Positions 511 to 34,313 of a DNA stretch of 35,886 nt are shown here, piece by piece. The DNA is taken from the IMG/VR virus record IMGVR_UViG_3300042923_001064, positions 1-35,886 of that record; one strand, written 5' to 3'. The position numbers and the translations under genes are program-made. Below the pieces are notes generated by a model. That model was not told the DNA's origin, searched no databases, and saw only the letters and a program-made list of their open reading frames with translations. Source of the DNA: a virus. How positions within the stretch are numbered: the stretch's first letter is position 1; the number at the start of each line of letters is the position of its first letter.

Positions 511-543
511 ACCCCGGTCATATTGGCCGGGGTATTTTTTTTT
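511..543 (+). terminator. Rho-independent terminator after the amidase
   Basis: ACCCCGG and CCGGGGT pair around a 9-nt loop (511-533), followed by a run of nine T after a TA. It closes the late/lysis transcript. Because it stands upstream of the open frame at 564-854, that frame receives no obvious transcription from the lysis operon. Confidence 0.9.
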
Positions 544-563: not shown

Positions 564-854
564 ATAAATAATAATTTATCTAATATGACAACAGAATTCA
601 TGACGGTGGCAGACACAGCGTATACGTTAGAATTAATCACCAAGCATATATATGTGATTTCAATAAATAGCACAAATTCGGCTTACCAATGTCTTTATTT
701 CCTAGTCAAACCAAATTCATCAAATACGTATGTAATACCGGTTAAGACAGCATCAGGGGTAACAGTTACAGCAAGTGGAGCCACTATTCAGATAACCACT
801 AACTCTTACCCGATGCCTATCACACTTATTGATCTGACTAAATTTGAAGCTTAG
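564..854 (+). CDS. Silent tail-tip cassette C (alternative C-terminus of the tail fibre)
   Basis: The open frame runs through the 14-bp core at 565-578, which reads INNN plus Leu, and continues for about 90 residues to the stop at 852-854. The first ATG is at 585 but has no Shine-Dalgarno sequence. The frame lies directly behind a terminator, so it looks unexpressed in this arrangement. The product is rich in Thr, Ser, Asn, Val and Ile, as in beta-structured receptor-binding heads. The active tail gene at 33027-33893 enters its variable region at the same core in the same frame, so recombination at the cores would give an in-frame fusion. The function as an alternative tip is inferred from this arrangement, and I see no sequence match to a named family. 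Confidence 0.6.
   Translation: MNNNLSNMTTEFMTVADTAYTLELITKHIYVISINSTNSAYQCLYFLVKPNSSNTYVIPVKTASGVTVTASGATIQITTNSYPMPITLIDLTKFEA
565..578 (+). repeat. Inversion core site C (TAAATAATAATTTA)
   Basis: This is one of four copies of the 14-mer I found: 565-578 (+), 1197-1210 (-), 33574-33587 (+) and 34298-34311 (-). Each stands at the same reading-frame position at the start of a tip-like coding stretch. The sequence is nearly palindromic (TAAAT and ATTTA arms) with an asymmetric AATA centre that gives it direction. Upstream, site C shares AACATnnGTTnGA with site D. Confidence 0.65.
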
Positions 855-878: not shown

Positions 879-1286
879 TTAAATCAGAACCGGTAACTGC
901 CCGCTAAGTGTTAAAATAGATAAAGGGACTGCGTAAGCCTGGCTATTCGATATAGTAATATTGTTCATGCTACCTGACACATCACTAATCGTATATGTTA
1001 ACAAACTTGCGTTAATCAAATGGTTTATACTTGCTTTTTGGGTTTGGTTTCCTGTGTTGCCTCCGTAGACAATTGATAGCCCTCTATACCCGGTTAAATA
1101 ATGATTAGTAGCAAAAACATATACACCGGGATAGTAAACGCTTATTACAATGCTTGAGTTAGCTGGTACGTTATAGGTTACATTTTTTAAAGCTCCTAAA
1201 TTATTATTTATCAAACGGATGTTCTGGATAAAGTCAACATAATGTGGATTAATATAATTACATATGACAAGTATGTGCATACACAT
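879..1286 (-). CDS. Silent tail-tip cassette D (alternative C-terminus of the tail fibre)
   Basis: This frame reads on the minus strand, tail-to-tail with cassette C, with 24 bp between the stop codons. The core at 1197-1210 encodes INNNL at about residues 26-30. The part after it, about 105 residues, is rich in Asn, Ser, Thr, Val and Tyr and looks beta-structured. An ATG at 1286 opens the frame, but no Shine-Dalgarno sequence precedes it, and the first 25 residues are probably not translated in this form. The serine recombinase gene ends 26 bp away at 1313. Inversion between this core and the one at 33574 would place the cassette in frame behind the fixed stem. The tip role is inference. Confidence 0.6.
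   Translation of the reverse strand: MCMHILVICNYINPHYVDFIQNIRLINNNLGALKNVTYNVPANSSIVISVYYPGVYVFATNHYLTGYRGLSIVYGGNTGNQTQKASINHLINASLLTYTISDVSGSMNNITISNSQAYAVPLSILTLSGQLPVLI
1197..1210 (-). repeat. Inversion core site D (TAAATAATAATTTA on minus)
   Basis: This minus-strand copy of the 14-mer is flanked on its own strand by GA before and GG after. It is inverted relative to sites A and C. Inversion against C (632 bp apart) would swap C and D in place. Inversion against A across the lysis genes would bring D behind the tail stem. Confidence 0.65.
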
Positions 1287-1312
1287 ATAAACATACTAGT
1301 CAATGGCGATAT

Positions 1313-2902
1313 TTAAAACTTAACAACGTTAGGAAATAGCTCTATTGTAAAGTTAGTATTATCTCGGTTACCCTTCTTATTAGGTTCTATTTTAATATAT
1401 TCTATCTTATCAACAATTTCCTTAAGAACTTCATTGCGACCGGCAGCAGTATCAATATCATAGTATGATTCAAGAATATTCTCAGCCATCGGTATAAATG
1501 TGTTATTTCGGTTAGACTGAACCTCTAAAATTTTTAAACCGTCTTCTAAAAATTGTATAGTGGTCCTGAGTTCCTCAGCTTCAGCATTAATTTTTTTGTT
1601 ACGTGCTGCAAATATATCAGATGAGTATAATCCCTGCTCCAAAAAAGTATAGATACGTTCATGTTGCTCTGACAATTTATCCAGACTAATCTGAGCTTGC
1701 TTGATATCAGATTTCTTTGATTCTATGGCCTGTGCATAAGGTATGTTCACTTTCTCATGATTCCATTTTACTTTAAAATCTTTCAGCCAATTCCTAAGAG
1801 CCTCAATTATAACATCTTCAACTACATATAAAGGAGCTGATATATTATCACAATAAATATTTGGACACTTAATTGCATCATAAGGTGTTTTAGAGGTCTT
1901 GGCTAATCTAGTCATAAGGGCACCACATTTACCACAATACAGTATACCGGATAATGGATTTTTAAGTATACCACTACCTGGCACAGGTGGTTGTCCTCTC
2001 TTTGCAATGATCTGCTGAGCGATATTATATGTGTCTAAATCTATGATGGGTTTATGCAAACCGTCAACTAATATATAATCATTATCATTGGGACGGGATA
2101 CTTTAATCTCACCATTTTTTAAGTACTTTTTTTCCTTACGATAGGACCATCTGATTTTGCCTAAATAAACAGGATTTTTAAGTATATCCGTTACAGATGA
2201 TTTAGACCAACTGTCTCTTATCATAGGTTTTATACCTAGGTTATTAAGCTTCATGGCTATACGAGAGGCCCCCAGCCTATCATGAGTATTATCTGGTCGC
2301 AATTCTCCAACAGTATACCAATCATATATCATGCGTACTACATCAGCCTGATCGGGATTGATATCAAGCGTATATCCCTTATCATTTTTAATTTTAACTC
2401 TATCATACCCATACGGAGCAACGGAAGATATATATTTACCTTCTTTAACAGAGGCAATCCTCCCTCGTTGGATCCGTCGATTAATCGTCTTATATTCCCG
2501 GCGGCTCATAAACAAACCGAACTCAAAGTATTCTTCGTCAAATTCATTCGACGGATCAAATACCTTGCTAGGTGTTATTATTTTAGTATTCGTATATTTA
2601 AATGCCTGAGCAACAATACCCTGATCAATGGAATCACCACGGGCAAGACGCTCTATCTCCATAACAAGTACACCATCCCAGGAACCTTGTTCAACCTCAG
2701 ATAATAACTGTTGCATCATTGGCCTAGCAGCTATTGTTTCTCCGGATACTATCTCACGGTAGATCTGAGTAACATTTAACGATTGCCTTTTAGACAGATC
2801 TAGAAGAGCCTTCTCATGTCTTAGTAACGTCTCACCTTCTCCATGGGCCTCAGCGTCCATGTCTGCCCTAGACTTACGTAGATAGATAACATATTGTGCC
2901 AT
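1313..2902 (-). CDS. Large serine recombinase (candidate tail-tip invertase or integrase)
   Basis: The protein has 529 residues. The resolvase catalytic domain begins YLRKSRAD, with nucleophile Ser11, and contains the conserved ERLARGD. A recombinase domain follows (PYGYDRV, then SWSKSSVTDILKNPVYLGK). Next comes a zinc-ribbon pattern (YCGKCG, later CPNIYC) and a coiled-coil stretch near residues 390-440. The length fits phage large serine integrases, not the roughly 190-residue Gin/Hin invertases. The start is supported by AGGAGG 7 bases upstream of ATG 2902. It lies next to cassette D, whose core site is about 100 bp beyond the stop codon. Members of this family cut a 2-bp core in pairs of att sites. 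Here the neighbouring repeats suggest it flips the tip cassettes, though an integrase role is not excluded. Confidence 0.95.
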   Translation of the reverse strand: MAQYVIYLRKSRADMDAEAHGEGETLLRHEKALLDLSKRQSLNVTQIYREIVSGETIAARPMMQQLLSEVEQGSWDGVLVMEIERLARGDSIDQGIVAQAFKYTNTKIITPSKVFDPSNEFDEEYFEFGLFMSRREYKTINRRIQRGRIASVKEGKYISSVAPYGYDRVKIKNDKGYTLDINPDQADVVRMIYDWYTVGELRPDNTHDRLGASRIAMKLNNLGIKPMIRDSWSKSSVTDILKNPVYLGKIRWSYRKEKKYLKNGEIKVSRPNDNDYILVDGLHKPIIDLDTYNIAQQIIAKRGQPPVPGSGILKNPLSGILYCGKCGALMTRLAKTSKTPYDAIKCPNIYCDNISAPLYVVEDVIIEALRNWLKDFKVKWNHEKVNIPYAQAIESKKSDIKQAQISLDKLSEQHERIYTFLEQGLYSSDIFAARNKKINAEAEELRTTIQFLEDGLKILEVQSNRNNTFIPMAENILESYYDIDTAAGRNEVLKEIVDKIEYIKIEPNKKGNRDNTNFTIELFPNVVKF

Positions 2903-2925
2903 ACATTAACCTCCTAATATTGGAT

Positions 2926-2960
2926 AAAATAAAAAGCTCCGGTTGATTAAGACCAGAGCT
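2926..2960 (-). terminator. Minus-strand terminator/attenuator in front of the recombinase gene
   Basis: On the minus strand AGCTCTGGT (complement of 2952-2960) pairs with ACCGGAGCT (complement of 2935-2943), followed by TTTTTATTTTAT. It would stop transcripts arriving from 3049-3459 just before the recombinase ribosome binding site. The left arm can pair instead with GACCAGAGCT (complement of 2992-3001), so an antiterminated form is possible. Confidence 0.6.
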
Positions 2961-2971
2961 TGTAGTATAAT
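2943..2971 (+). promoter_or_regulatory. Sigma-A-type promoter for a candidate small RNA
   Basis: TTGATT (2943-2948) and TATAAT (2966-2971) are separated by exactly 17 bases on the plus strand. No plus-strand gene follows until 3598. A structured stretch ending in a terminator begins about 8 bases downstream. The bases after the -10 box, ATGGTAAA, match half of the inverted repeat in front of the XRE gene at 3598, so that regulator may act here. Confidence 0.7.
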
Positions 2972-2978
2972 ATGGTAA

Positions 2979-3047
2979 AGACGATATCACAGCTCTGGTC
3001 AGTTGGATATCGTTAGGCCGTTCCTATTCGCAGTAGGAGCGGTTTTT
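2979..3047 (+). ncRNA. Candidate small RNA of about 70 nt
   Basis: From the predicted start near 2979 the transcript would fold into two hairpins. ACGATATC (2981-2988) pairs perfectly with GATATCGT (3006-3013). CCGTTCCTA (3018-3026) pairs with TAGGAGCGG (3034-3042), and five T follow. The 17-nt loop of the first hairpin exposes AGCTCTGGTC, complementary to the leader of the recombinase gene on the other strand. It is antisense to any minus-strand transcript coming from 3049-3459. I do not recognise a known RNA family. Expression is inferred from the promoter and terminator only. Confidence 0.55.
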
Positions 3048-3048
3048 A

Positions 3049-3459
3049 TTAGTGCAGTATTTCATAATCGTCTAGCGCAAATCCGGGTTGAGCTACTTTA
3101 ATTTGATCTTTATCATAAAAATATATATAAATTAATTTTGAATCTGAGATAATATTAAATTCCCATGCATATGTAGTAAAAACATTTCTTATTGAATTGC
3201 AAAATTTTATCTTTTCAATTTCGGATGAATTATACCATACATCACTAACAGTAATTTTATAAATGTCATCATCAATATAATCTAAATCAATTATATTATC
3301 GTTATTAGATAAGTAAGTCTCTATAGCAGTTGAAAACCCATTGACATCAGGTTTTGGTTTTAAAATAATACATATAATAAAAATAATTATTAGGATAGAT
3401 ATGATTATTCCCCAAAGTATTAATCCTATTTTCCATAATTTTTTATTAGTGATTTCCAT
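3049..3459 (-). CDS. Small membrane-anchored protein of unknown function
   Basis: The protein has 136 residues. After about ten charged N-terminal residues comes a strongly hydrophobic segment (about 11-33, IISILIIIFIICIILK) that should span the membrane once. A soluble Asp/Ile/Tyr-rich domain follows. AAGGAG stands 9 bases before ATG 3459. It lies between the candidate small RNA and the XRE gene, transcribed away from the latter. Its position in the lysogeny region suggests a gene expressed from the prophage, for example in superinfection exclusion, but nothing in the sequence proves this. AT content is higher than in the structural genes, which fits an accessory gene. Confidence 0.75.
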   Translation of the reverse strand: MEITNKKLWKIGLILWGIIISILIIIFIICIILKPKPDVNGFSTAIETYLSNNDNIIDLDYIDDDIYKITVSDVWYNSSEIEKIKFCNSIRNVFTTYAWEFNIISDSKLIYIYFYDKDQIKVAQPGFALDDYEILH

Positions 3460-3998: not shown

Positions 3999-4106
3999 TT
4001 GAGTACAAAAGATTTCAAAGAGCTGATCATCAACCTTATCAAAGGCATCGACGATATGAGTGTCTTAACAAAGATATATACAGTCGTCAAAAACTTCATC
4101 AACTAA
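3999..4106 (+). CDS. Small SOS-linked phage protein, 35 aa; possible antirepressor
   Basis: TTG at 3999 follows a GGGGG Shine-Dalgarno stretch by 8 bases. The ATG just upstream runs straight into a stop, so TTG is the likely start. The peptide starts MSTKDFKELI and has the charged/hydrophobic rhythm of a short amphipathic helix pair. Similar peptides of 35-45 residues occur beside repressors in Clostridia prophages (from memory of such loci). It is read from the LexA-linked promoter and converges on the XRE repressor at 4131-4505. A role in inactivating that repressor after DNA damage is inference. Confidence 0.65.
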   Translation: MSTKDFKELIINLIKGIDDMSVLTKIYTVVKNFIN

Positions 4107-4147
4107 AAGTAAAGAGTAGGCATAAAATGCCTACTCTTTACTTTTTT
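4107..4147. terminator. Bidirectional terminator, 16-bp perfect hairpin
   Basis: AAGTAAAGAGTAGGCA (4107-4122) and TGCCTACTCTTTACTT (4128-4143) pair without mismatch around a 5-nt loop. T residues follow on the plus strand and an A/T-rich tract follows on the minus strand. It separates the small peptide from the converging repressor gene. The last residues and stop codon of the repressor are encoded inside the stem. Confidence 0.9.
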
Positions 4148-4505
4148 CTGCAATATGTAGAATAAAATCTTTTAATAGCTTTTTACCGTTCTCATCAAGT
4201 TTCCAATATTCAATAAGTATCTGCATTGCTAACTTATCATTAGATTTAGATATCTCAGTAGCAGCCTTAAAATATTCATCTTCTTCAGGAATTTCTAGAA
4301 ACATCTTTCCTTCTCCAGTGCGAAGCCAATTTTCATTAATATTAAATACTCTACAGATTAATTCAATAACTTGATTAGATGGATTGCGTCTGTCAGTTTC
4401 ATAATTAGTAATTGTGTTGCTGGCAAGACCAATTTTTTTACCAAAATCATTCTGATTCATATCTAAATTCTTTCTTAATAGTCTTATGCGTTCACCAATT
4501 GTCAC
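4131..4505 (-). CDS. XRE-family phage repressor (CI-like, 124 aa)
   Basis: The N-terminal helix-turn-helix (about residues 5-60) contains MNQNDFGKKIGLASNTITNYE and NPSNQVIELICRVFNINENWLRTGEG, typical of prophage repressors. The C-terminal 60 residues are helical and acidic, and there is no S24/LexA-type protease domain, so RecA-driven self-cleavage is not expected. The start is GTG 4505, preceded by a GTGGGG stretch. Its own promoter (4539-4567) and the divergent early promoter (4588-4616) share operator-like sequences, so it probably controls both. It is the best candidate for the lysogeny master repressor. Confidence 0.88.
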   Translation of the reverse strand: MTIGERIRLLRKNLDMNQNDFGKKIGLASNTITNYETDRRNPSNQVIELICRVFNINENWLRTGEGKMFLEIPEEDEYFKAATEISKSNDKLAMQILIEYWKLDENGKKLLKDFILHIAEKSKE

Positions 4506-4538
4506 TTTGTAACCCCACTTTCGTAATTTATTAATTAC

Positions 4539-4567
4539 ATAATACTTTATAAAAACGTCTTAGTCAA
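4539..4567 (-). promoter_or_regulatory. Repressor promoter
   Basis: On the minus strand, TTGACT (complement of 4562-4567), 17 bases and TATTAT (complement of 4539-4544) form a promoter for the repressor gene. The operator-like ACGTCttaGTCA (4555-4566) overlaps the -35 region, which would allow autoregulation. Confidence 0.7.
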
Positions 4568-4587
4568 CAAAAATATTTAAAAAGATA

Positions 4588-4616
4588 TTGACAATAATGA
4601 CAGTGACGTATATAAT
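4588..4616 (+). promoter_or_regulatory. Early lytic promoter
   Basis: TTGACA (4588-4593), a 17-base spacer and TATAAT (4611-4616) make a near-consensus promoter reading into the early genes from 4671. The -10 box lies inside a palindrome formed by TGACGT (4604-4609) and ACGTCA (4618-4623), the likely main operator of the repressor. Confidence 0.85.
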
Positions 4617-4623
4617 AACGTCA
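4604..4623. promoter_or_regulatory. Operator palindrome TGACGT-8-ACGTCA
   Basis: Perfect 6-bp half-sites lie 8 bases apart around the early -10 box. A degenerate second copy (ACGTCttaGTCA, 4555-4566) overlaps the -35 box of the repressor promoter. This is the usual geometry of a divergent phage switch. Confidence 0.65.
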
Positions 4624-4670
4624 TAGACAACATTTATCTATAAAAATCGACCTAGAAAGGGGAACGTTTT

Positions 4671-4832
4671 ATGAGTGAATTCACACATTTAACAAAAGAA
4701 GATGAAAAAAACGGTAATGAACTTAACGAAGTAATAGAAACACTGGATGAAGCATCTAAGAAAATAATCTTAATATACGCAAGCGGATTAAGAGATAGAC
4801 AAATGATAACAGAGAGTGGTAAATCAGCCTAG
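4671..4832 (+). CDS. Early small protein, 53 aa, unknown
   Basis: The first gene of the early transcript starts at ATG 4671, behind AAAGGGGAACGTTTT. The product begins MSEFTHLTKE and is helical and acidic. Its segment ASKKIILIYASGLRDRQM is common in small proteins beside prophage repressors in Clostridia (recollection, not checked). The position directly after the operator suggests a Cro-like or antirepressor role, but there is no clear helix-turn-helix. The stop lies within the stem of the following hairpin. Confidence 0.7.
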   Translation: MSEFTHLTKEDEKNGNELNEVIETLDEASKKIILIYASGLRDRQMITESGKSA

Positions 4833-4850
4833 CCAATAGGCTAGGCTGAT
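4823..4850 (+). terminator. 12-bp hairpin after the first early gene
   Basis: ATCAGCCTAGCC and GGCTAGGCTGAT pair perfectly around AATA. There is no T-run afterwards (AAATAAAAG follows), so this may be a processing or partial termination signal rather than a full terminator. Confidence 0.5.
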
Positions 4851-4885
4851 AAATAAAAGTTAGGACAAAGAAATAGACAGTAAGT

Positions 4886-4912
4886 ATCTTCGTATCAACA
4901 CAGCTCTCCAGG
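4886..4912 (+). repeat. 27-bp inverted repeat, left arm
   Basis: The arm begins ATCTTCGTATCAACACAGC and matches the complement of 5222-5248 at 26 of 27 positions. The pair encloses 309 bp holding a single minus-strand HTH gene. Similarity stops abruptly at both ends. This could be an invertible or mobile unit, or paired operators. Confidence 0.75.
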
Positions 4913-4978
4913 AGAATGTCACAGTAGTTGTAGCTACCGTGCAGATTTATAAAAGTGAAAACACTAACCGCAAAGCTT

Positions 4979-5209
4979 TTAACGGTTTGAGTGACAGAGG
5001 TAATTGTCAGTTATCTCGAGGACATCAACGAGCTTAGCTAAATTACAGTGCCTTGGCTCGTAGGTGCCGTTTAACCAGTGCCTAATTGTTGATTTCTTTA
5101 CACCGGTGTACATGGATAGACCATATACAGACAAAGAGCGACTTTGCATCGTGTCCAATAAGCGCGTTGCAAAGGTATCATTAAAAAAGAAGAAAAAGAA
5201 GAAGACCAT
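4979..5209 (-). CDS. Small HTH (XRE-like) protein, 76 aa
   Basis: The helix-turn-helix is seen in LSVYGLSMYTGVKKSTIRHW followed by LNGTYEPRHCNLAKLVDVLE, an XRE-like arrangement. The chosen ATG at 5209 follows AAGGGGGGTG, but the protein then begins MVFFFFFFFND. Seven Phe in a row are unusual, so translation may start later, for example at the Met before QSRSL. It is read against the surrounding early genes and lies between the arms of a 27-bp inverted repeat, which sets it apart as an insertion or a self-contained switch. Confidence 0.6.
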   Translation of the reverse strand: MVFFFFFFFNDTFATRLLDTMQSRSLSVYGLSMYTGVKKSTIRHWLNGTYEPRHCNLAKLVDVLEITDNYLCHSNR

Positions 5210-5221
5210 CACCCCCCTTAA

Positions 5222-5248
5222 CCTGGAGGGCTGTGTTGATACGAAGAT
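5222..5248 (-). repeat. 27-bp inverted repeat, right arm
   Basis: This is the partner of 4886-4912, with one mismatch. On the minus strand it falls just upstream of the likely start of the HTH gene, where it could act as that gene's operator. Confidence 0.75.
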
Positions 5249-5385
5249 AAAATGGCATTTCATATGTATTCGGCTTGTCGGTAACATAGCTACATTATAG
5301 GAGAATAATGGTAACAATGCAATATTAAGTCGAACATAGTCTGAAAGGACAGTAAGGTAAATTAAGAATTATGGAGGACTGAATT

Positions 5386-7412: not shown

Positions 7413-7569
7413 AAGTCAGCAGGTACGCTAACCAAAATATACTATAAATAGGATAGCATATCTGCCTCGTAAAGTCAAGAAAATCAAGAGGTTGTGACCT
7501 CTTTCACGACCTCGTAATGGGTATTACTTAATCAACCAACACTAAAATTAAATAGGAGTATATCTATCC

Positions 7570-8427
7570 ATGACAAAGTACTATGACTATGATCCAGAGG
7601 AGATATACGACAGAGACGTTCTAGGAGAAGAAACGACAGAGGAAAAGATAGAGCAGCTGAGAGGTAAAAATTATTCTTACGTAGTAAAGACCATAGTAAG
7701 TGGTCCGGTAGTTGAATGTGAAATATATCCGGTATTTACAAACAAAAAGAATTTACCGCGGAGGAATAAAGAAAAGACATCCAGAAATGTACAGAAGAAT
7801 TTGAATGATAAAAATGCAAAGAAGAAAGTATCACGATTAGTAAATGCAAATTTTACAAGTAAAGATTTAGCGGTAACGCTCACTTATACAGATCATTATT
7901 TACCAAACGAAAAACAAGCAAGGAAGGATGTTACTAATTTTCTTCGGAGGGTTAGTAGGTACCGTAAGAAACATGGACTACCAGATCTGAAGTACATTTA
8001 CGTAATCGGATGTGTAGATGATGAAGAACGGAAGCACTCAAAGAAAGTAAGAATACATCATCATCTGATTATAAATGATATGGACCGTGATGTGGTGGAG
8101 GGCCTTTGGGGAAAAGGAAGAGCTGAGGCAAAGCGATTACAGCCGGATGATTTTGGGCTAGAAGGTATTGCAAGATATATGGCTGGACAGAACAACGGAT
8201 CTAAGAGATGGTATGCTTCAAGAAATTTGGATCAACCTAAGGTTTATAGATCGTTTACCAAATTGACAAAAAAGAAAGCAGAGCAGATGTATCGCACACA
8301 GGCTGACTGGGAAGAGACTTTTGAAAAGATATACAAAGGTAAGTATAAATACCTTGATTGTAAACCTTATGAAAGTGATTTTACCGGAGGCTTTTATTTA
8401 TACGCAAGAATGCGTAAGAGAGAATAG
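7570..8427 (+). CDS. HUH rolling-circle Rep-like protein (replication initiator)
   Basis: The protein has 285 residues. Rep motifs appear in order: DLAVTLTYTD near residue 100 (motif 1), RIHHHLII with the HUH pair His163/His165 that holds the metal (motif 2), and GIARYMAGQ with candidate nicking Tyr203 (motif 3). Enzymes of this class nick one strand at an origin and stay linked to the 5' end. It follows SSB, and I see no helicase loader, primase or polymerase in the genome. It is therefore the best candidate for the replication initiator, perhaps recruiting host enzymes. The usual lysine after the motif-3 tyrosine is not evident (GQNNGSK instead). Confidence 0.8.
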   Translation: MTKYYDYDPEEIYDRDVLGEETTEEKIEQLRGKNYSYVVKTIVSGPVVECEIYPVFTNKKNLPRRNKEKTSRNVQKNLNDKNAKKKVSRLVNANFTSKDLAVTLTYTDHYLPNEKQARKDVTNFLRRVSRYRKKHGLPDLKYIYVIGCVDDEERKHSKKVRIHHHLIINDMDRDVVEGLWGKGRAEAKRLQPDDFGLEGIARYMAGQNNGSKRWYASRNLDQPKVYRSFTKLTKKKAEQMYRTQADWEETFEKIYKGKYKYLDCKPYESDFTGGFYLYARMRKRE

Positions 8428-9143: not shown

Positions 9144-9642
9144 AGTATTTGGAGAGTTTGATAGTTCGGAGGAAATCAATGAAGCCGCAGCAGGGTTATT
9201 GGCTGAAGGGGATCATGAGAACATTTTAGTTTTAGCAAAGGAAAACGGACTTGATCCGGAGTTTGCACAGGCTTACATCGATGGAGAGATTTCGGTTCTT
9301 ACAGATTCTTTAATGGCAGCAGTTGGTAAGATTGAGTTAGAGCGGAATGATATAAAAGATTCTTTCTTCAATGAAATGAAGGAAGATATGATTAATTATC
9401 TGCTATGCTCTGATGAAATGATGGCCAGGGCAATTAGAAGGAAAGGTAAGAGCTTGAAGGGATGCTTTGAATATTGCAAGAAAGAAATTGAAAAAGCATT
9501 AAGCAGGAAAAACGGAGGACTTAGAGACAGAGTAGTTTACGCGATGGAAAAAGACTATTACTTGAAGAAGGAGGTAGTTAAGAGTGAAAAAGAAGCTGCT
9601 AGAGAAGACACCGATGAAACAGATACGGATGACGAAGAATAA
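9136..9642 (+). CDS. PcfK-like protein
   Basis: The chosen start ATG 9136 has AGGAGG 9-10 bases upstream and overlaps the end of the RNase H-like gene, giving 168 residues. The C-terminal part (KSLKGCFEYCKKEIEKALSR, then RDRVVYAMEKDYYLK) resembles the PcfK family, known from conjugative plasmids next to pcfJ. Some members of that superfamily (AcrIIA9-type) inhibit Cas9. The N-terminal half is an acidic helical domain. A very acidic tail (DTDETDTDDEE) ends the protein. It is followed immediately by a PcfJ-like gene, which supports the family call. Anti-CRISPR activity is only a possibility. Confidence 0.65.
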   Translation: MYKVFGEFDSSEEINEAAAGLLAEGDHENILVLAKENGLDPEFAQAYIDGEISVLTDSLMAAVGKIELERNDIKDSFFNEMKEDMINYLLCSDEMMARAIRRKGKSLKGCFEYCKKEIEKALSRKNGGLRDRVVYAMEKDYYLKKEVVKSEKEAAREDTDETDTDDEE

Positions 9643-11548
9643 TAAAAAATGGTTGGTTTCTGCTCAGATAGTTAATTGCGCAGGTGAAAATATTTTACTT
9701 CTAGATATGTATCAAAATAAACCATACATAGACCAGACTCAATATCCTCAATACAGATTGTTTATCAATAAAAACGAAGACATGATTTATAACGTGAAGG
9801 ATAAAGAATGGCATACACAGAAAATAGAAACACTCCCCGGGATGCGGTATGGCTCTATGAAAGATTATTATGAAATGTTGGACAAAACATCAGAAAAAGT
9901 CATTGATAAATATATTCCACAAAAATGGACATGGGATACTAACCATCTAGATAGAGTAAAAAGTAAACAGGAAGAGAACCGTAGCAAAAAATCATCAAGA
10001 GCCTATGAATTAAGAGTTGCAAGAATTAAAAATAGAATGAATATAGTGAATGAACTTTCTGGGCCAGATGATTTTCTTCGATTTGTGGACGAATCATATA
10101 ATGATCTTAGATATGCATTCTATAAAGCCGAAGGAAACAAGAGATACATTCAAATATCCTGCTCTCACTGTAAATCGGAACATAAAATTGATTCTAAAAA
10201 AGAAGAACGTCCAAGACATTTAGGATATGGTATTTGTCCGGAATGTGGCAGCAGGATACAATACATTTCACCCGGGAAGAGGCAGAAGATATCTGAAAGT
10301 AAAGATGTGATCCTGATGCAGAAAATAGAAGGTGGGTTTGTAAGTAGATATTATGATGCAGATCGGGAATCAGTGTATGGAAATGAATATTACCACATCA
10401 GAGAAAAAGCAAGAGTAATATATGATGGAAAATCAGCAAAGACATATTATAACACCAATGGAAAATATGAGACAAAGGAAATATATTGGTGGGACCGAAA
10501 TGCTCAAATGTATTCGTATGATTGCCATGTAACTTATGGAAAAGGGGTTTTATATCATAAAAATCTTAATGAAGTACTTCATGATACAACATTCCGATAT
10601 AGCGCATTGAAACAACTAGCAGAACACAAACAGGGATATGTGATCAATCATGAATCATTCCTTCAACATTACGAAAGCAATCGATTTATCGAGTACTTCA
10701 TCAAAATGGGATTATATAATCTAGCAAACGATTTTGTAATAAGTGCTTACACAAATGCTATAAATCGGGCTGGTAAGAATCCATTAGAGATTTTAAAAAT
10801 ATCAAAACAACAGGTAAATAGATTAATTGAGATGGATGGAAATTTATATACTCTGAGGTTGCTTCAAGCTGAAAACGTAGCAGGTAAAAAATTCACGGAT
10901 GAGGAAATGATATACCTAACGGAGAATTCCATTGATATTGATAGGCTGGAAAAAATATTGCAGTATACTACGGCAATGAAAGCGATTCGATACCTTAAGG
11001 AAGTCAAAAGCTATAAGAAATCAAACACTAGCCTGATTGATTGGAATGACTATCTGGAAAATTGTAAGACACTGGAATATGACTTACGAAATGAATTTAT
11101 ATTGTTTCCTAGACATCTGAAAGAAGCACATGACAGGACGGTACTTCTAGTAATGGATATTAAGAATAAAGCTATGGACGTGCAATTGAAGGATTTCATG
11201 ATGCAAGCAGTACAGAAATATAAGTTTAATACAGAACATTATGAAATAGTTGTACCGAATACGACAAGTGACATCGTAAGGGAAGGCCAAGAGCTGCATC
11301 ACTGTGTTGGTACCTATGTAGACAGAGTAGTAAAAGGTGAAACAACAATTTTATTTGTAAGAGAGAAAGATTACATAGACCAGCCGTTTTACACCATGGA
11401 AGTCAAAAACGGAGCCATCGTTCAGGTTAGAGGAAAGAATAACAAGGATATGACTCCTCAGGTAAAGCAATTTATAGAAAGTTTTAAAAAGAAAAAATTA
11501 AATCAAGAGGAACCATCGTATGCGAAGGGAGGAGGCAACGTTGCATAA
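9584..11548 (+). CDS. PcfJ-like protein
   Basis: The protein has 654 residues. GTG 9584 is preceded by AGGAGG about 9 bases upstream and overlaps the end of the PcfK-like gene by 59 bp. Later ATG codons at 9614 and 9629 are alternatives. A zinc-ribbon stretch is visible at about residues 195-225 (CSHCKSE and CPECGSR). The C-terminal domain (about 555-640) has the PcfJ signature SDIVREGQELHHCVGTYVDR followed by FYTMEVKNGAIVQVRGK. PcfJ proteins accompany PcfK in plasmids and phages of Firmicutes. Their biochemical role is not established. A nucleic-acid role is likely from the zinc ribbon and the replication-module context. Confidence 0.85.
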   Translation: MKKKLLEKTPMKQIRMTKNNKKWLVSAQIVNCAGENILLLDMYQNKPYIDQTQYPQYRLFINKNEDMIYNVKDKEWHTQKIETLPGMRYGSMKDYYEMLDKTSEKVIDKYIPQKWTWDTNHLDRVKSKQEENRSKKSSRAYELRVARIKNRMNIVNELSGPDDFLRFVDESYNDLRYAFYKAEGNKRYIQISCSHCKSEHKIDSKKEERPRHLGYGICPECGSRIQYISPGKRQKISESKDVILMQKIEGGFVSRYYDADRESVYGNEYYHIREKARVIYDGKSAKTYYNTNGKYETKEIYWWDRNAQMYSYDCHVTYGKGVLYHKNLNEVLHDTTFRYSALKQLAEHKQGYVINHESFLQHYESNRFIEYFIKMGLYNLANDFVISAYTNAINRAGKNPLEILKISKQQVNRLIEMDGNLYTLRLLQAENVAGKKFTDEEMIYLTENSIDIDRLEKILQYTTAMKAIRYLKEVKSYKKSNTSLIDWNDYLENCKTLEYDLRNEFILFPRHLKEAHDRTVLLVMDIKNKAMDVQLKDFMMQAVQKYKFNTEHYEIVVPNTTSDIVREGQELHHCVGTYVDRVVKGETTILFVREKDYIDQPFYTMEVKNGAIVQVRGKNNKDMTPQVKQFIESFKKKKLNQEEPSYAKGGGNVA

Positions 11549-16785: not shown

Positions 16786-16843
16786 AAATTTGCCTTTGCA
16801 TGGCAGCAGGATTAATTCACTTAAGATTAAGGGGGAAAGCATT

Positions 16844-17851
16844 ATGTACAGTATGGATGAGGTAATATTGGGGATTACAGCAGCAATGTATAAAAGCTTA
16901 AATCAAGATCAGACAAATGAGCTAAAAACTGTTTTATATATGCACCTAGGTAAGTATCAGTTGGTCCAAGAAGAAACCGCTATATCAACAATGATAGATG
17001 ATAATTCGGATAAGATTAATATGTTTCTGGCCACGCTGAGTATTGAGGGTAAATCAGATAAAACCATTAAGGCATATAAGTGTGAGTACAGAGTATTCTT
17101 CTCAGCAGTCAATAAAAACTTTAGGGATGTCACAACTAATGATGTGAGAATGTATCTAGCACATTGTAAGACTGTAAGAAAGAATAGTGATACTACTCTC
17201 AATAATCGTATACATATGCTGATGAGCCTATTCAAGTGGTTGACAACCGAGGAGTATATAAGCCGCAATCCAATGCTTAAAATCCATATTGTAAAAACTG
17301 AAAAGAGGGTAAAAGAAGTATTATCCGATGAACAGGCAGAGATGATCCGTTGCTCTTGCGATAAAGAAAGAGATCTAGCCATAATAGATATACTCGTAAG
17401 TACCGGTATGAGAGTAGGCGAATTAGTAAAACTCAACCGATCTGACATAGACTTTGTAAATGGTCAATGTATCGTTTATGGCAAAGGCAAAAAAGAAAGA
17501 CCGGTTTATCTCAATGGTAAAGCTAAGGTCCATCTTATGTGGTACCTGGAGCAAAGGACAGATAGCAATCCTGCATTATTCGTAGGATTGAAAGAACCTC
17601 ATGAGAGATTAACAGAGTCAGGAGTAAGAGCCATGATGTCAAAGCTCTGTGAGACCAACAAAGTAAGTAATCTGCATTTGCATCCTCATAAGCTCAGGAG
17701 GACCATGGCAACCAATATGATAAACAGGGGAGCACCTGCAGAGCACGTACAAAAGATACTAGGACACGCATCAGTACAAACAACGTTAGAGTGTTACTGT
17801 AATATGAGCACACAGGTAATAAAAGAAGCATATCGAAAGTATGCCGGATAA
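16844..17851 (+). CDS. Tyrosine recombinase (integrase/XerD-like)
   Basis: ATG 16844 follows AAGGGGGAAAGC and gives 335 residues. The N-terminal SAM-like domain (about 50-130: FLATLSIEGKSDKTIKAYK) binds the core site. The catalytic set is complete: Arg190 in STGMRVGEL, Lys in GKGKKERP (about 214-217), His282 and Arg285 in LHPHKLRRTM, His308 in LGHAS and Tyr318 in TTLECY. It could integrate the phage, resolve dimers, or both. It lies between the accessory genes and the late regulator, which is unusual for a main integrase but common in Clostridia phages that carry a second recombinase. Confidence 0.95.
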   Translation: MYSMDEVILGITAAMYKSLNQDQTNELKTVLYMHLGKYQLVQEETAISTMIDDNSDKINMFLATLSIEGKSDKTIKAYKCEYRVFFSAVNKNFRDVTTNDVRMYLAHCKTVRKNSDTTLNNRIHMLMSLFKWLTTEEYISRNPMLKIHIVKTEKRVKEVLSDEQAEMIRCSCDKERDLAIIDILVSTGMRVGELVKLNRSDIDFVNGQCIVYGKGKKERPVYLNGKAKVHLMWYLEQRTDSNPALFVGLKEPHERLTESGVRAMMSKLCETNKVSNLHLHPHKLRRTMATNMINRGAPAEHVQKILGHASVQTTLECYCNMSTQVIKEAYRKYAG

Positions 17852-32051: not shown

Positions 32052-33034
32052 ATGCAAATGAATTAGTAAAATTACAAACCAATCAACCATCTGAAAATAA
32101 AGTGAAACTTGCCACAGTATCAGGATTATATGAAAACGGTACAGCAAAAATAACATTTTTTGGAGAGGCAGTAGAAAGCCAAAAAAGCTACAGTTACTTA
32201 GCTGGTTATCAGCCGGCAATCGATGATACTGTATTAATGCTTCCTTGCGCTGACACATACATCATTGTAGACAGAGTGCTATTACAATCGGAAGTACCCA
32301 TTGACCTAGTAACACAATTGGAGATGCAAGATGCTATACAGGATTTTGTTACCGAAGCAGCACTTACATTAATACTTACTGGTTACGCACTAACTGGACA
32401 CACTCATTCAACATATTCATTGACGGGCCACACACATACAACATATTCTTTAACCACTCATGATCACACCGGTACATATGCTCCAATAACTCACTATCAT
32501 AGTTCAGTGAGACATGCTTCAGAGACATCCTATAATGCCGGACTTAATATTATATCTAACGGATACCCAGCATTTATACCGAGCTCTAATAATATGGATT
32601 TAGGATCTTCTTCATACAAATGGAGGGTAGTATATGCAGGAACAGGTACGATAAACACATCAGATAAGAGACAAAAGAAAAATATAAAACCTATCTCAGA
32701 TAAGTATGAAAAACTTTTCAAAATGTTACGTCCTGTGTCTTATAAATTCAGGAAAAATCAAAGTAACAGATTACATATTGGATTTATTGCACAAGAGGTT
32801 GAAAAGTCAATGGATGAGATCGGAATGACTTCATCAGAATTTGCAGGATTTATAAAAGCTCCGGTAACCGATAAAAAAGGAAATATAAAGGACTATCAAT
32901 ACGGTCTGAGATATTCAGAGTTTATCGCTCTGAACAGCCACATGATACAACTACAAGAGAAAAAAATAAGTAAATTAGAGCAAAAAGTAAACATACTTGA
33001 AAATATAATTAAGGGAGGTGGAGCGAATGGTTAA
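32045..33034 (+). CDS. Tail fibre with HxH repeats and Peptidase_S74 chaperone
   Basis: The protein has 329 residues. Residues about 113-152 contain repeated GHTH and THDH motifs (YALTGHTHSTYSLTGHTHTT), which bind metal ions in trimeric fibres. The C-terminal S74 domain starts at SDKRQKKNI (catalytic Ser206), followed by FIAQEVEKSM and RYSEFIALNSHMIQLQEKK. This domain folds the trimer and then cuts itself off. It should yield a trimeric fibre involved in host binding. It overlaps the tip gene by a few bases. Confidence 0.92.
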   Translation: MVDANELVKLQTNQPSENKVKLATVSGLYENGTAKITFFGEAVESQKSYSYLAGYQPAIDDTVLMLPCADTYIIVDRVLLQSEVPIDLVTQLEMQDAIQDFVTEAALTLILTGYALTGHTHSTYSLTGHTHTTYSLTTHDHTGTYAPITHYHSSVRHASETSYNAGLNIISNGYPAFIPSSNNMDLGSSSYKWRVVYAGTGTINTSDKRQKKNIKPISDKYEKLFKMLRPVSYKFRKNQSNRLHIGFIAQEVEKSMDEIGMTSSEFAGFIKAPVTDKKGNIKDYQYGLRYSEFIALNSHMIQLQEKKISKLEQKVNILENIIKGGGANG

Positions 33035-33893
33035 TGTGTCTTTTTCGGAATCCGGAGTGGCCACATATGATAAGCATGCATTTTATCAATATGATTATGG
33101 ACGTACATTAGTAATTGATGGGTTGGAACTGCCGGCAACTGTACAGGTCCATTTTGCAAGAAAAGATGTTCCGGCCGAGATTATGCTAGGGACAACGGTA
33201 GATGGAGTAATGACAGTTGAGGTACCTGCAACAACATTACAATATGCAGGTGAATTCAATGTTTACATATTTCTAACCACAGATACAACAGGGAAAACAT
33301 ATAAAACATTATCATTTACCACGAGAAAAAGAGAAAAGCCATTAGACTATGCTGCAGAGGCTGAACCGGGAATTATAGACCAATTAACACAAAAGCTTAA
33401 TCAGATTATTGATACAGGAATAGCATCCTATGTACCAGATGAGGCAGCAGTAAATGCAATGATATTGTCATACGTACAGGCTAATTTGATTACCAATAAT
33501 GATGCTGCTACGGTACCTGGTACCGCTTGGGACGCTGTAAGAGGTAAGCAGATTAGGACAGATCTGAATACGCTAAATAATAATTTAGCTTATACAAGAG
33601 GTACTATTACTTTAAGCTCTGGATTTACCGCGGTCATTAATAAAACGTGGAAGCAGGGCATCCTAAGGGTAATATCTGGGTCGATAAATGGCACATTTGC
33701 AGCCGGTGTAGCACATACGATTGGTACGGTACCGGCTGATTTTAAGCCTGATGTTACACGATGGACAGCAGGGGCTACTCCGTCCGGAGCATCGGCAACG
33801 GTTGGTGTAACTGGAACGGCAGGCGAAGTTGTCATAATACCCAAAGATGCTGCCACCGAAATAAGATTCACGCTGATATATTTTACTTGGTAA
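33027..33893 (+). CDS. BppU-like tail-tip protein with switchable C-terminus (active cassette A)
   Basis: ATG 33027 follows GGGAGGTGGAGCGA and gives 288 residues. Residues 1-100 match BppU-type baseplate proteins (FYQYDYGRTLVIDGLELP). A short coiled linker (KLNQIIDTG) leads to the codons for LNTLNNNLA at residues 180-188, which carry the 14-bp core at 33574-33587. Beyond it, about 100 residues form a beta-rich tip (ASATVGVTGTAGEVV). The core marks the fixed/variable border shared with the silent frames at 564-854, 879-1286 and 33902-34313. The stop is 8 bp from the stop of cassette B. It is the currently expressed receptor-binding variant, by inference from order. Confidence 0.8.
   Translation: MVNVSFSESGVATYDKHAFYQYDYGRTLVIDGLELPATVQVHFARKDVPAEIMLGTTVDGVMTVEVPATTLQYAGEFNVYIFLTTDTTGKTYKTLSFTTRKREKPLDYAAEAEPGIIDQLTQKLNQIIDTGIASYVPDEAAVNAMILSYVQANLITNNDAATVPGTAWDAVRGKQIRTDLNTLNNNLAYTRGTITLSSGFTAVINKTWKQGILRVISGSINGTFAAGVAHTIGTVPADFKPDVTRWTAGATPSGASATVGVTGTAGEVVIIPKDAATEIRFTLIYFTW
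33574..33587 (+). repeat. Inversion core site A (active position)
   Basis: TAAATAATAATTTA lies inside the tail-tip gene, flanked by GC on both sides (GCTAAATAATAATTTAGC). The silent sites have GA on the left. This site faces B (34298-34311) and D in inverted orientation, and C in direct orientation. Confidence 0.7.
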
Positions 33894-33901
33894 ATAGCTA
33901 T

Positions 33902-34313
33902 TTATGGAACAAAATAAAACCCACTTAAATGCACCTCGAATGCATCTGATATACTGCCAACGTTCAACAATGCTACTCCTGAATTATCTGAAATTAGATA
34001 GAATATAATGTAGTTCGTTCCAGCACCAACTGTAGCTGTTATTTCTTTGTAGGCACCGAAATTAACATAATTCGCTATGCCGATATGCATACTAGTTCTC
34101 GTACCTGTGGCTGTAAAAGGTAAATTCCCAATTAGGACACCGCCTGCCATTCCGCCTTTTGCTGATATCTTGATTGATACATTTATAAAGACCATTTTAC
34201 CTATACGGTAATAAAATCCGGATTGAGTTGCATATGTTGGTGATCCGGCTGTAGTCGAACCATAAAGCACAGGTGAAAAACTGCTGGATTGCAACGCTAA
34301 ATTATTATTTATC
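33902..34313 (-). CDS. Silent tail-tip cassette B
   Basis: A minus-strand open frame without an ATG or ribosome binding site at its head runs from the core at 34298-34311 (read INNNLAL) to a stop at 33902-33904. The product is about 135 residues after the core. It contains Ser/Thr/Gly-rich beta pattern segments (LYGSTTAGSPTYATQSG, then GNLPFTATGTRTSM) and ends LSGFYFVP. It lies tail-to-tail with the active tip, 8 bp between stops. Inversion of 33574-34311 would swap the two tips and join this frame to the stem. The function as an alternative receptor-binding head is inferred. Confidence 0.7.
34298..34311 (-). repeat. Inversion core site B
   Basis: The minus-strand copy of TAAATAATAATTTA shares a further GC on the right with site A (16 identical bases). 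It lies 738 bp from the far edge of site A, a suitable span for a local inversion. Confidence 0.7.

Follow-up and report, generated by a model that had tools for sequence, protein, structure and literature searches.

The phage genome analysed here (the window: all 35,886 nucleotides of IMG/VR virus record IMGVR_UViG_3300042923_001064) carries one constant tail-tip half and four alternative C-terminal cassettes joined to identical 14-bp sites, an arrangement that is probably a receptor-binding tail-tip shufflon driven by the hsdS/PsrA-type tyrosine recombinase encoded at 16790–17851 (Table 1). An earlier reading of the DNA made from sequence only had proposed an invertible tip with one active and one silent cassette; this is supported by our analysis and is extended from two cassettes to four. 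The tail-tip switch is well supported and of a known kind; what is new lies in the family of enzyme and site, the split storage of the cassettes and the distance of the recombinase from them.

Table 1. Features of the proposed tail-tip shufflon and of neighbouring elements in the window.
Feature	Position	Strand	Basis
Intrinsic terminator between endolysin gene and stored cassettes C/D	511..533	+	
Crossover site sC, directly downstream of terminator after endolysin gene	565..578	+	
Silent cassette C, in frame with site	579..854	+	
Silent cassette D, in frame with site	879..1196	-	
Crossover site sD	1197..1210	-	
Putative attP of large serine integrase	1244..1297	-	Conserved just 3' of gene in homologues
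Large serine recombinase, most likely phage integrase	1313..2902	-	Homologues, structure match
Xer-like tyrosine recombinase, proposed invertase	16790..17851	+	SAM-like and catalytic domains; family–site association; tree
Constant N-terminal part of tail-tip (receptor-binding) gene, BppU-like	33018..33573	+	ATG 33027; orthologues L005 67%, G002 54%; Foldseek 4v96
Crossover site sA, TAAATAATAATTTA, translated LNNNL	33574..33587	+	
Cassette A, tip C-terminus expressed now	33588..33893	+	
Silent cassette B, resembles phage tail protein C-termini	33902..34297	-	phrog_28473 match
Crossover site sB	34298..34311	-	

At the tip locus one copy of the 14-bp core TAAATAATAATTTA is within the tail-tip gene (plus strand), where it corresponds to residues 183–187 counted from the ATG at 33027 or 186–190 from the GTG at 33018, and the other heads a reverse open frame on the minus strand; the exact repeat around the core at this locus is 16 bp. 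The active and reverse frames traverse the core in identical phase and their stops are separated by a gap of 8 bp, the active frame stopping at 33893 and the reverse stop codon ending at 33902. In the reverse frame (cassette B) an in-frame stop is located 8 codons before the isoleucine codon that enters the core, and ATG, GTG and TTG are all absent between that stop and the core. The positions of the core, the shared phase, the start-less reverse frame and the close stops had all been described previously and were confirmed. The point at which A and B meet (33879–33916) is a near-perfect palindrome around TAAATAGCTATTTA, with arms that are site-like yet self-complementary; it may act as a bidirectional terminator or as a decoy.

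Cassette B matched a tail fiber family (phrog_28473, E = 1.6e-6) and resembles the extreme C-terminus of the tail protein of Klebsiella phage UPM 2146. B was rejected as an ordinary separate gene because a start codon is missing at its head and because its relatives are the C-terminal ends of longer tail proteins. No phage relatives of cassettes A, C or D were detectable, and a structural model of B alone was unusable (mean pLDDT 43).

The same 14-mer is also present at 565–578 and, on the opposite strand, at 1197–1210, two copies missed by the sequence-only reading. The first and last 127 bp of the contig are identical, giving a circle of 35,759 bp, and this overlap places the four sites within approximately 3.4 kb of the circle with the C/D pair some 2 kb downstream of the A/B pair. 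In gene order, tip A / B is followed by small genes, the holin and endolysin genes, the terminator, C / D, attP and the serine integrase. Counted from the site, cassette C is open for 96 codons and cassette D for 110; the two frames converge, with stops at 854 and 879, and both lack a start codon at the head. The D frame stays open as far back as an ATG at 1286, which falls within the attP-like stretch, and in C an ATG occurs only 21 bp past the start of its site. When the constant half was joined in silico to A, B, C and D, tips of 291, 321, 281 and 295 residues were obtained, all via the sequence ...LNNNL; the 321-residue tip produced by the A/B switch in silico is intact. The four cassettes are barely similar to one another, which fits the expectation for alternative binding domains. 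Of 150 dinucleotide-preserving shuffles, not one had a 14-mer with two or more copies on each of the two strands, and an inverted repeat of at least 14 bp with meeting convergent frames of at least 90 amino acids occurred in 0 of 100 shuffles; the window itself contains two pairs of this kind.

We propose that, via the 14-bp site, the single constant half can be joined in frame to four unrelated C-terminal domains, one at a time. Domain A would be the one expressed now and B would lie behind it in reverse; a second head-to-head pair, C and D, would be stored with the lysis genes on one side and the integrase on the other. Recombination between any two copies of the site that face in opposite directions would most likely be carried out by the Xer-like tyrosine recombinase. 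Inversion between A and B would swap these two tips directly, while inversion between A and D would bring D to the gene and reverse the lysis module; a subsequent B by C inversion would restore the orientation of the lysis module and leave D (or C) at the tip. By this presumed order of events all four tips could be reached, and a phage population would hold particles with differing tips and potentially differing host ranges. That C or D can only be reached through inversion of the lysis module, or through an even number of such events, weighs against this scheme.

A record with the other tip orientation, which the earlier reading had proposed should be sought in related phages, was not found among the IMG/VR viral contigs, a collection that holds no second record of the window phage. 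This also counts against the proposed shufflon and would suit an alternative in which the pairs are relics, their cassettes having once been exchanged in a lineage that no longer inverts. All four cassettes, however, keep full open frames in phase from the site and the four sites are identical; we therefore consider the relic interpretation extremely improbable.

The constant half had been described as BppU-like, and this held at the level of fold but not of sequence family, as the tip has no match in Pfam. Only about the first 105 residues of the tip are modelled reliably by AlphaFold, and these match BppU-type baseplate proteins. Foldseek searches with this N-terminal part retrieved 4v96 (E = 9e-6) and 6v8i (E = 1e-4), matches driven by residues with a pLDDT of 70–85; the best matches in the PDB were to individual chains from 4v96 and from the baseplate of phage 80alpha, and several matches in BFVD carry the name BppU domain protein. 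A BppU-like fold is therefore supported for the modelled N-terminal part.

The only resolvase-domain protein in the window is the 529-amino acid serine recombinase beside cassette D; no small serine invertase was found. The sequence-only reading had taken this neighbouring enzyme as the inverter, and we consider that assignment probably wrong. Its closest solved relative is YokA of SPbeta, several of its homologues sit at the ends of prophage-like contigs, and an attP-like site with inverted arms TGACWAGTATGT is conserved in the homologues, unlike the tip core. Taken together, these features indicate that the protein is most likely the phage integrase. It could be argued that the enzyme inverts the tips irrespective of whether it also integrates, given that its gene ends approximately 100 bp from site sD and that it is the only recombinase common to both phages found to bear a switch (the second, G002, is described below). 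However, the conserved site 3' of the gene differs in sequence from the core, and among 80 homologue loci the core or a cassette pair was present only in G002. Large serine integrase sites are roughly 40–50 bp, and 14-bp sites with diverged flanks are unlike these. The homologues thus share no core and have a distinct attP, and we rejected the serine recombinase as the invertase, a role that we regard as very unlikely.

The preferred candidate is the tyrosine recombinase encoded shortly before the terminase, around 16 kb from the cassettes, which had been overlooked. Its catalytic columns R/K/H/R/H/Y are intact, no arm-binding domain was matched in the protein, and it shares 40–47% identity with recombinases from the hsdS shufflons of bacterial type I restriction systems. 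In the tree it forms, with a 72% identical relative from another phage (G003), a clade that is sister to the hsdS clade (support 100/90 and 98/93), a topology compatible with transfer between phage and hsdS recombinases in either direction. For the relatives in L119, L127 and L128 the locus also has hsd genes, and the recombinase is surrounded by four copies of TAAATGATAATTTA in L119 and L127. L119 was considered as a second tail switch and rejected, as PADLOC identified an hsdS locus. No hsd genes were present among the window proteins scanned; here the sites lie in a tail gene, away from the recombinase. This distance, unlike the arrangement in the hsdS cases, is a point against the tyrosine recombinase as invertase, as is the G003 contig, which has no visible sites, although it ends inside the endolysin gene.

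Across 392 sampled genomes from one bacterial order, and in viral contigs, this pattern recurred with locus-specific centres (TAAACAATAATTTA, TAAACGATAATTTA, TAAATCATAATTTA, TAAACAAGAATTTA, TAAATGCTAATTTA and others). An inverted identical pair of TAAA-N5-ATTTA within 6 kb was present at 30 of 80 loci with recombinases of the family, all 30 of them beside hsd genes; by comparison, 39 controls with permuted arms had a mean of 0.46 loci with a pair and a maximum of 12, this highest-scoring control having arms that overlap the true site shifted by one base. No inverted pair was found at any of 14 more remote recombinases. In the hsdS genes the sites are translated as xINxNL, also (I/L/V)N(N/D/K/..)NL, for which the counterpart in the tip is LNNNL. 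A flank of AAT-NN-G upstream of the core is present in some phage sites and most hsdS sites, consistent with the published requirement of PsrA for a 15-bp inverted repeat plus upstream sequence (PMC7096588, PMC4948785). At L190 a family tyrosine recombinase (7515–8285) lies beside hsdS fragments with a pair of TAAATGATTATTTA, near mobile-element genes of which one is a serine recombinase homologue.

The switch design is preserved in the second phage, G002 (contig L009/L095/L105), in which the constant half of the tip is 54% identical and is followed by an active cassette and a reversed silent cassette. Both copies of the G002 site read TAAATGATAATTT, a sequence diverged from the window core; the site thus differs between the two phages yet matches within G002, indicating that the copies change together. 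Such paired change would be the expected outcome of recombination between the copies, or of selection for identity within a genome. The only other match to the site pattern among IMG/VR contigs, in L270, was a chance match in an unrelated phage.

No tyrosine recombinase was found in G002, which bears a switch nonetheless, and this counts against a phage-encoded invertase and would suit the alternative that a host enzyme acts in trans, for example a host hsdS shufflon recombinase using the same site, with the phage enzyme having another job or merely helping. The G002 form of the site, TAAATGATAATTTA, is letter-for-letter the same as the sites in the hsdS shufflons of L119, L127 and L179, and a trans-supplied invertase has been proposed for a second bifidophage locus (PMC6109161). 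The window phage, however, encodes its own member of the family with catalytic columns intact, and the records analysed include no host genome that carries both. The public G002 contig contains a 4.1-kb exact direct repeat (12.6–16.7 kb and 49.9–54.1 kb) and a second serine recombinase that adjoins a ComM-like gene, which suggests that it joins two phages; as it is partly chimeric, its gene content is uncertain. We consider supply in trans unlikely as the explanation for the window phage and retain its own tyrosine recombinase as the probable invertase.

A single recombination system thus seems to serve phage and host to opposite ends. A more tentative idea, which we think rather unlikely, is that the shuffling of tips and of restriction specificity shares an interchangeable system, such that a host hsdS recombinase acts on tips and a phage recombinase reshuffles the hsdS genes of the host. 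G002, having the exact hsdS site and no recombinase of its own, would require the host hsdS recombinase in trans. By reshuffling the hsdS genes the phage recombinase could alter the very restriction barrier that the phage meets. If the proposed shufflon itself is right, a single family of enzymes and a single DNA site would link variation in phage host range with variation in bacterial restriction, and cross-talk would be predicted in both directions. In-frame repeats of TAAA-N5-ATTTA, translated as xINxNL, would then be a simple signature for finding further switches, and a function would be offered for an Xer-like 'second integrase' whose gene lies shortly ahead of the terminase. None of the open-access papers searched joins phage tails with hsdS-type sites or recombinases.

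Among known switches, Rin was reported as the first phage-encoded invertase of the tyrosine family, in bifidobacterial prophages (PMC6109161), and a Rin shufflon has also been described for Eggerthella prophages (PMC8778435). The window resembles it in having a constant receptor-binding N-terminus with several unrelated C-terminal cassettes, short crossover sites and an Xer-like tyrosine recombinase that lacks an arm-binding domain and is distinct from the integrase. Rin sites are 11 bp (TTCCCTAACCC) and rin adjoins its cassettes, whereas the window has the 14-bp TAAATAATAATTTA, a recombinase about 16 kb away and cassettes in two head-to-head pairs split by lysis genes. The window recombinase belongs to the hsdS shufflon family; the comparison with Rin is by published description.

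PsrA and other hsdS systems (pneumococcal cod/SpnD39III and others; PMC4948785, PMC7096588, PMC7394358) have a homologous tyrosine recombinase, and the hsdS loci examined share with the window tip the in-frame TAAA-N5-ATTTA site, 14 bp long, identical within a locus and read as xINxNL. The window differs in that its target is a tail-tip gene instead of hsdS and its recombinase lies outside the locus. The likeness to PsrA itself is by published description.

Min of p15B, Gin of Mu and Cin of P1 likewise exchange a tail-fibre C-terminus by inversion from silent reversed cassettes, of which Min has several. These are small serine invertases, with sites of roughly 26 bp in the Gin/Cin/Hin systems; no enzyme of this class was found in the window. 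Min, Gin and Cin inversion involves Fis-bound enhancers. In common with Min and Rin, the window has a constant gene with alternative in-frame cassettes and sites in opposed orientation; in Min and Rin the invertase adjoins the cassettes, whereas in the window only the serine integrase does so.

A closer relative (L005/G001) has an orthologue of the constant half with 67% identity and a single tip, and the site is absent. In GTDB genomes no relative of the tip was found by tip alignment; a search with the neighbouring tail gene gave seven distant tails, and the core occurs in none of these. Deep-branching recombinases of the family lie directly beside phage tail-fibre genes at four loci (L118, 17645–18640; L131, 6758–7765; L233, 9989–10999; L235, 9740–10840); no convincing cassette pair was found at these four, and their recombinases may be tail invertases too. 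Another phage (L117) has a related tail module with a tail gene that is 46% identical, and in it a reverse transcriptase (RVT_1, E = 6e-10) adjoins the tail protein (2510–3355 and 4041–5276), an arrangement that resembles a diversity-generating retroelement occupying the position of the switch. Finally, two related metagenome contigs (L109, ending at 9258, and L111, ending at 9663) both break at the same residue of the tail-tip C-terminus, resembling the behaviour of assemblies at invertible or variable sequence.
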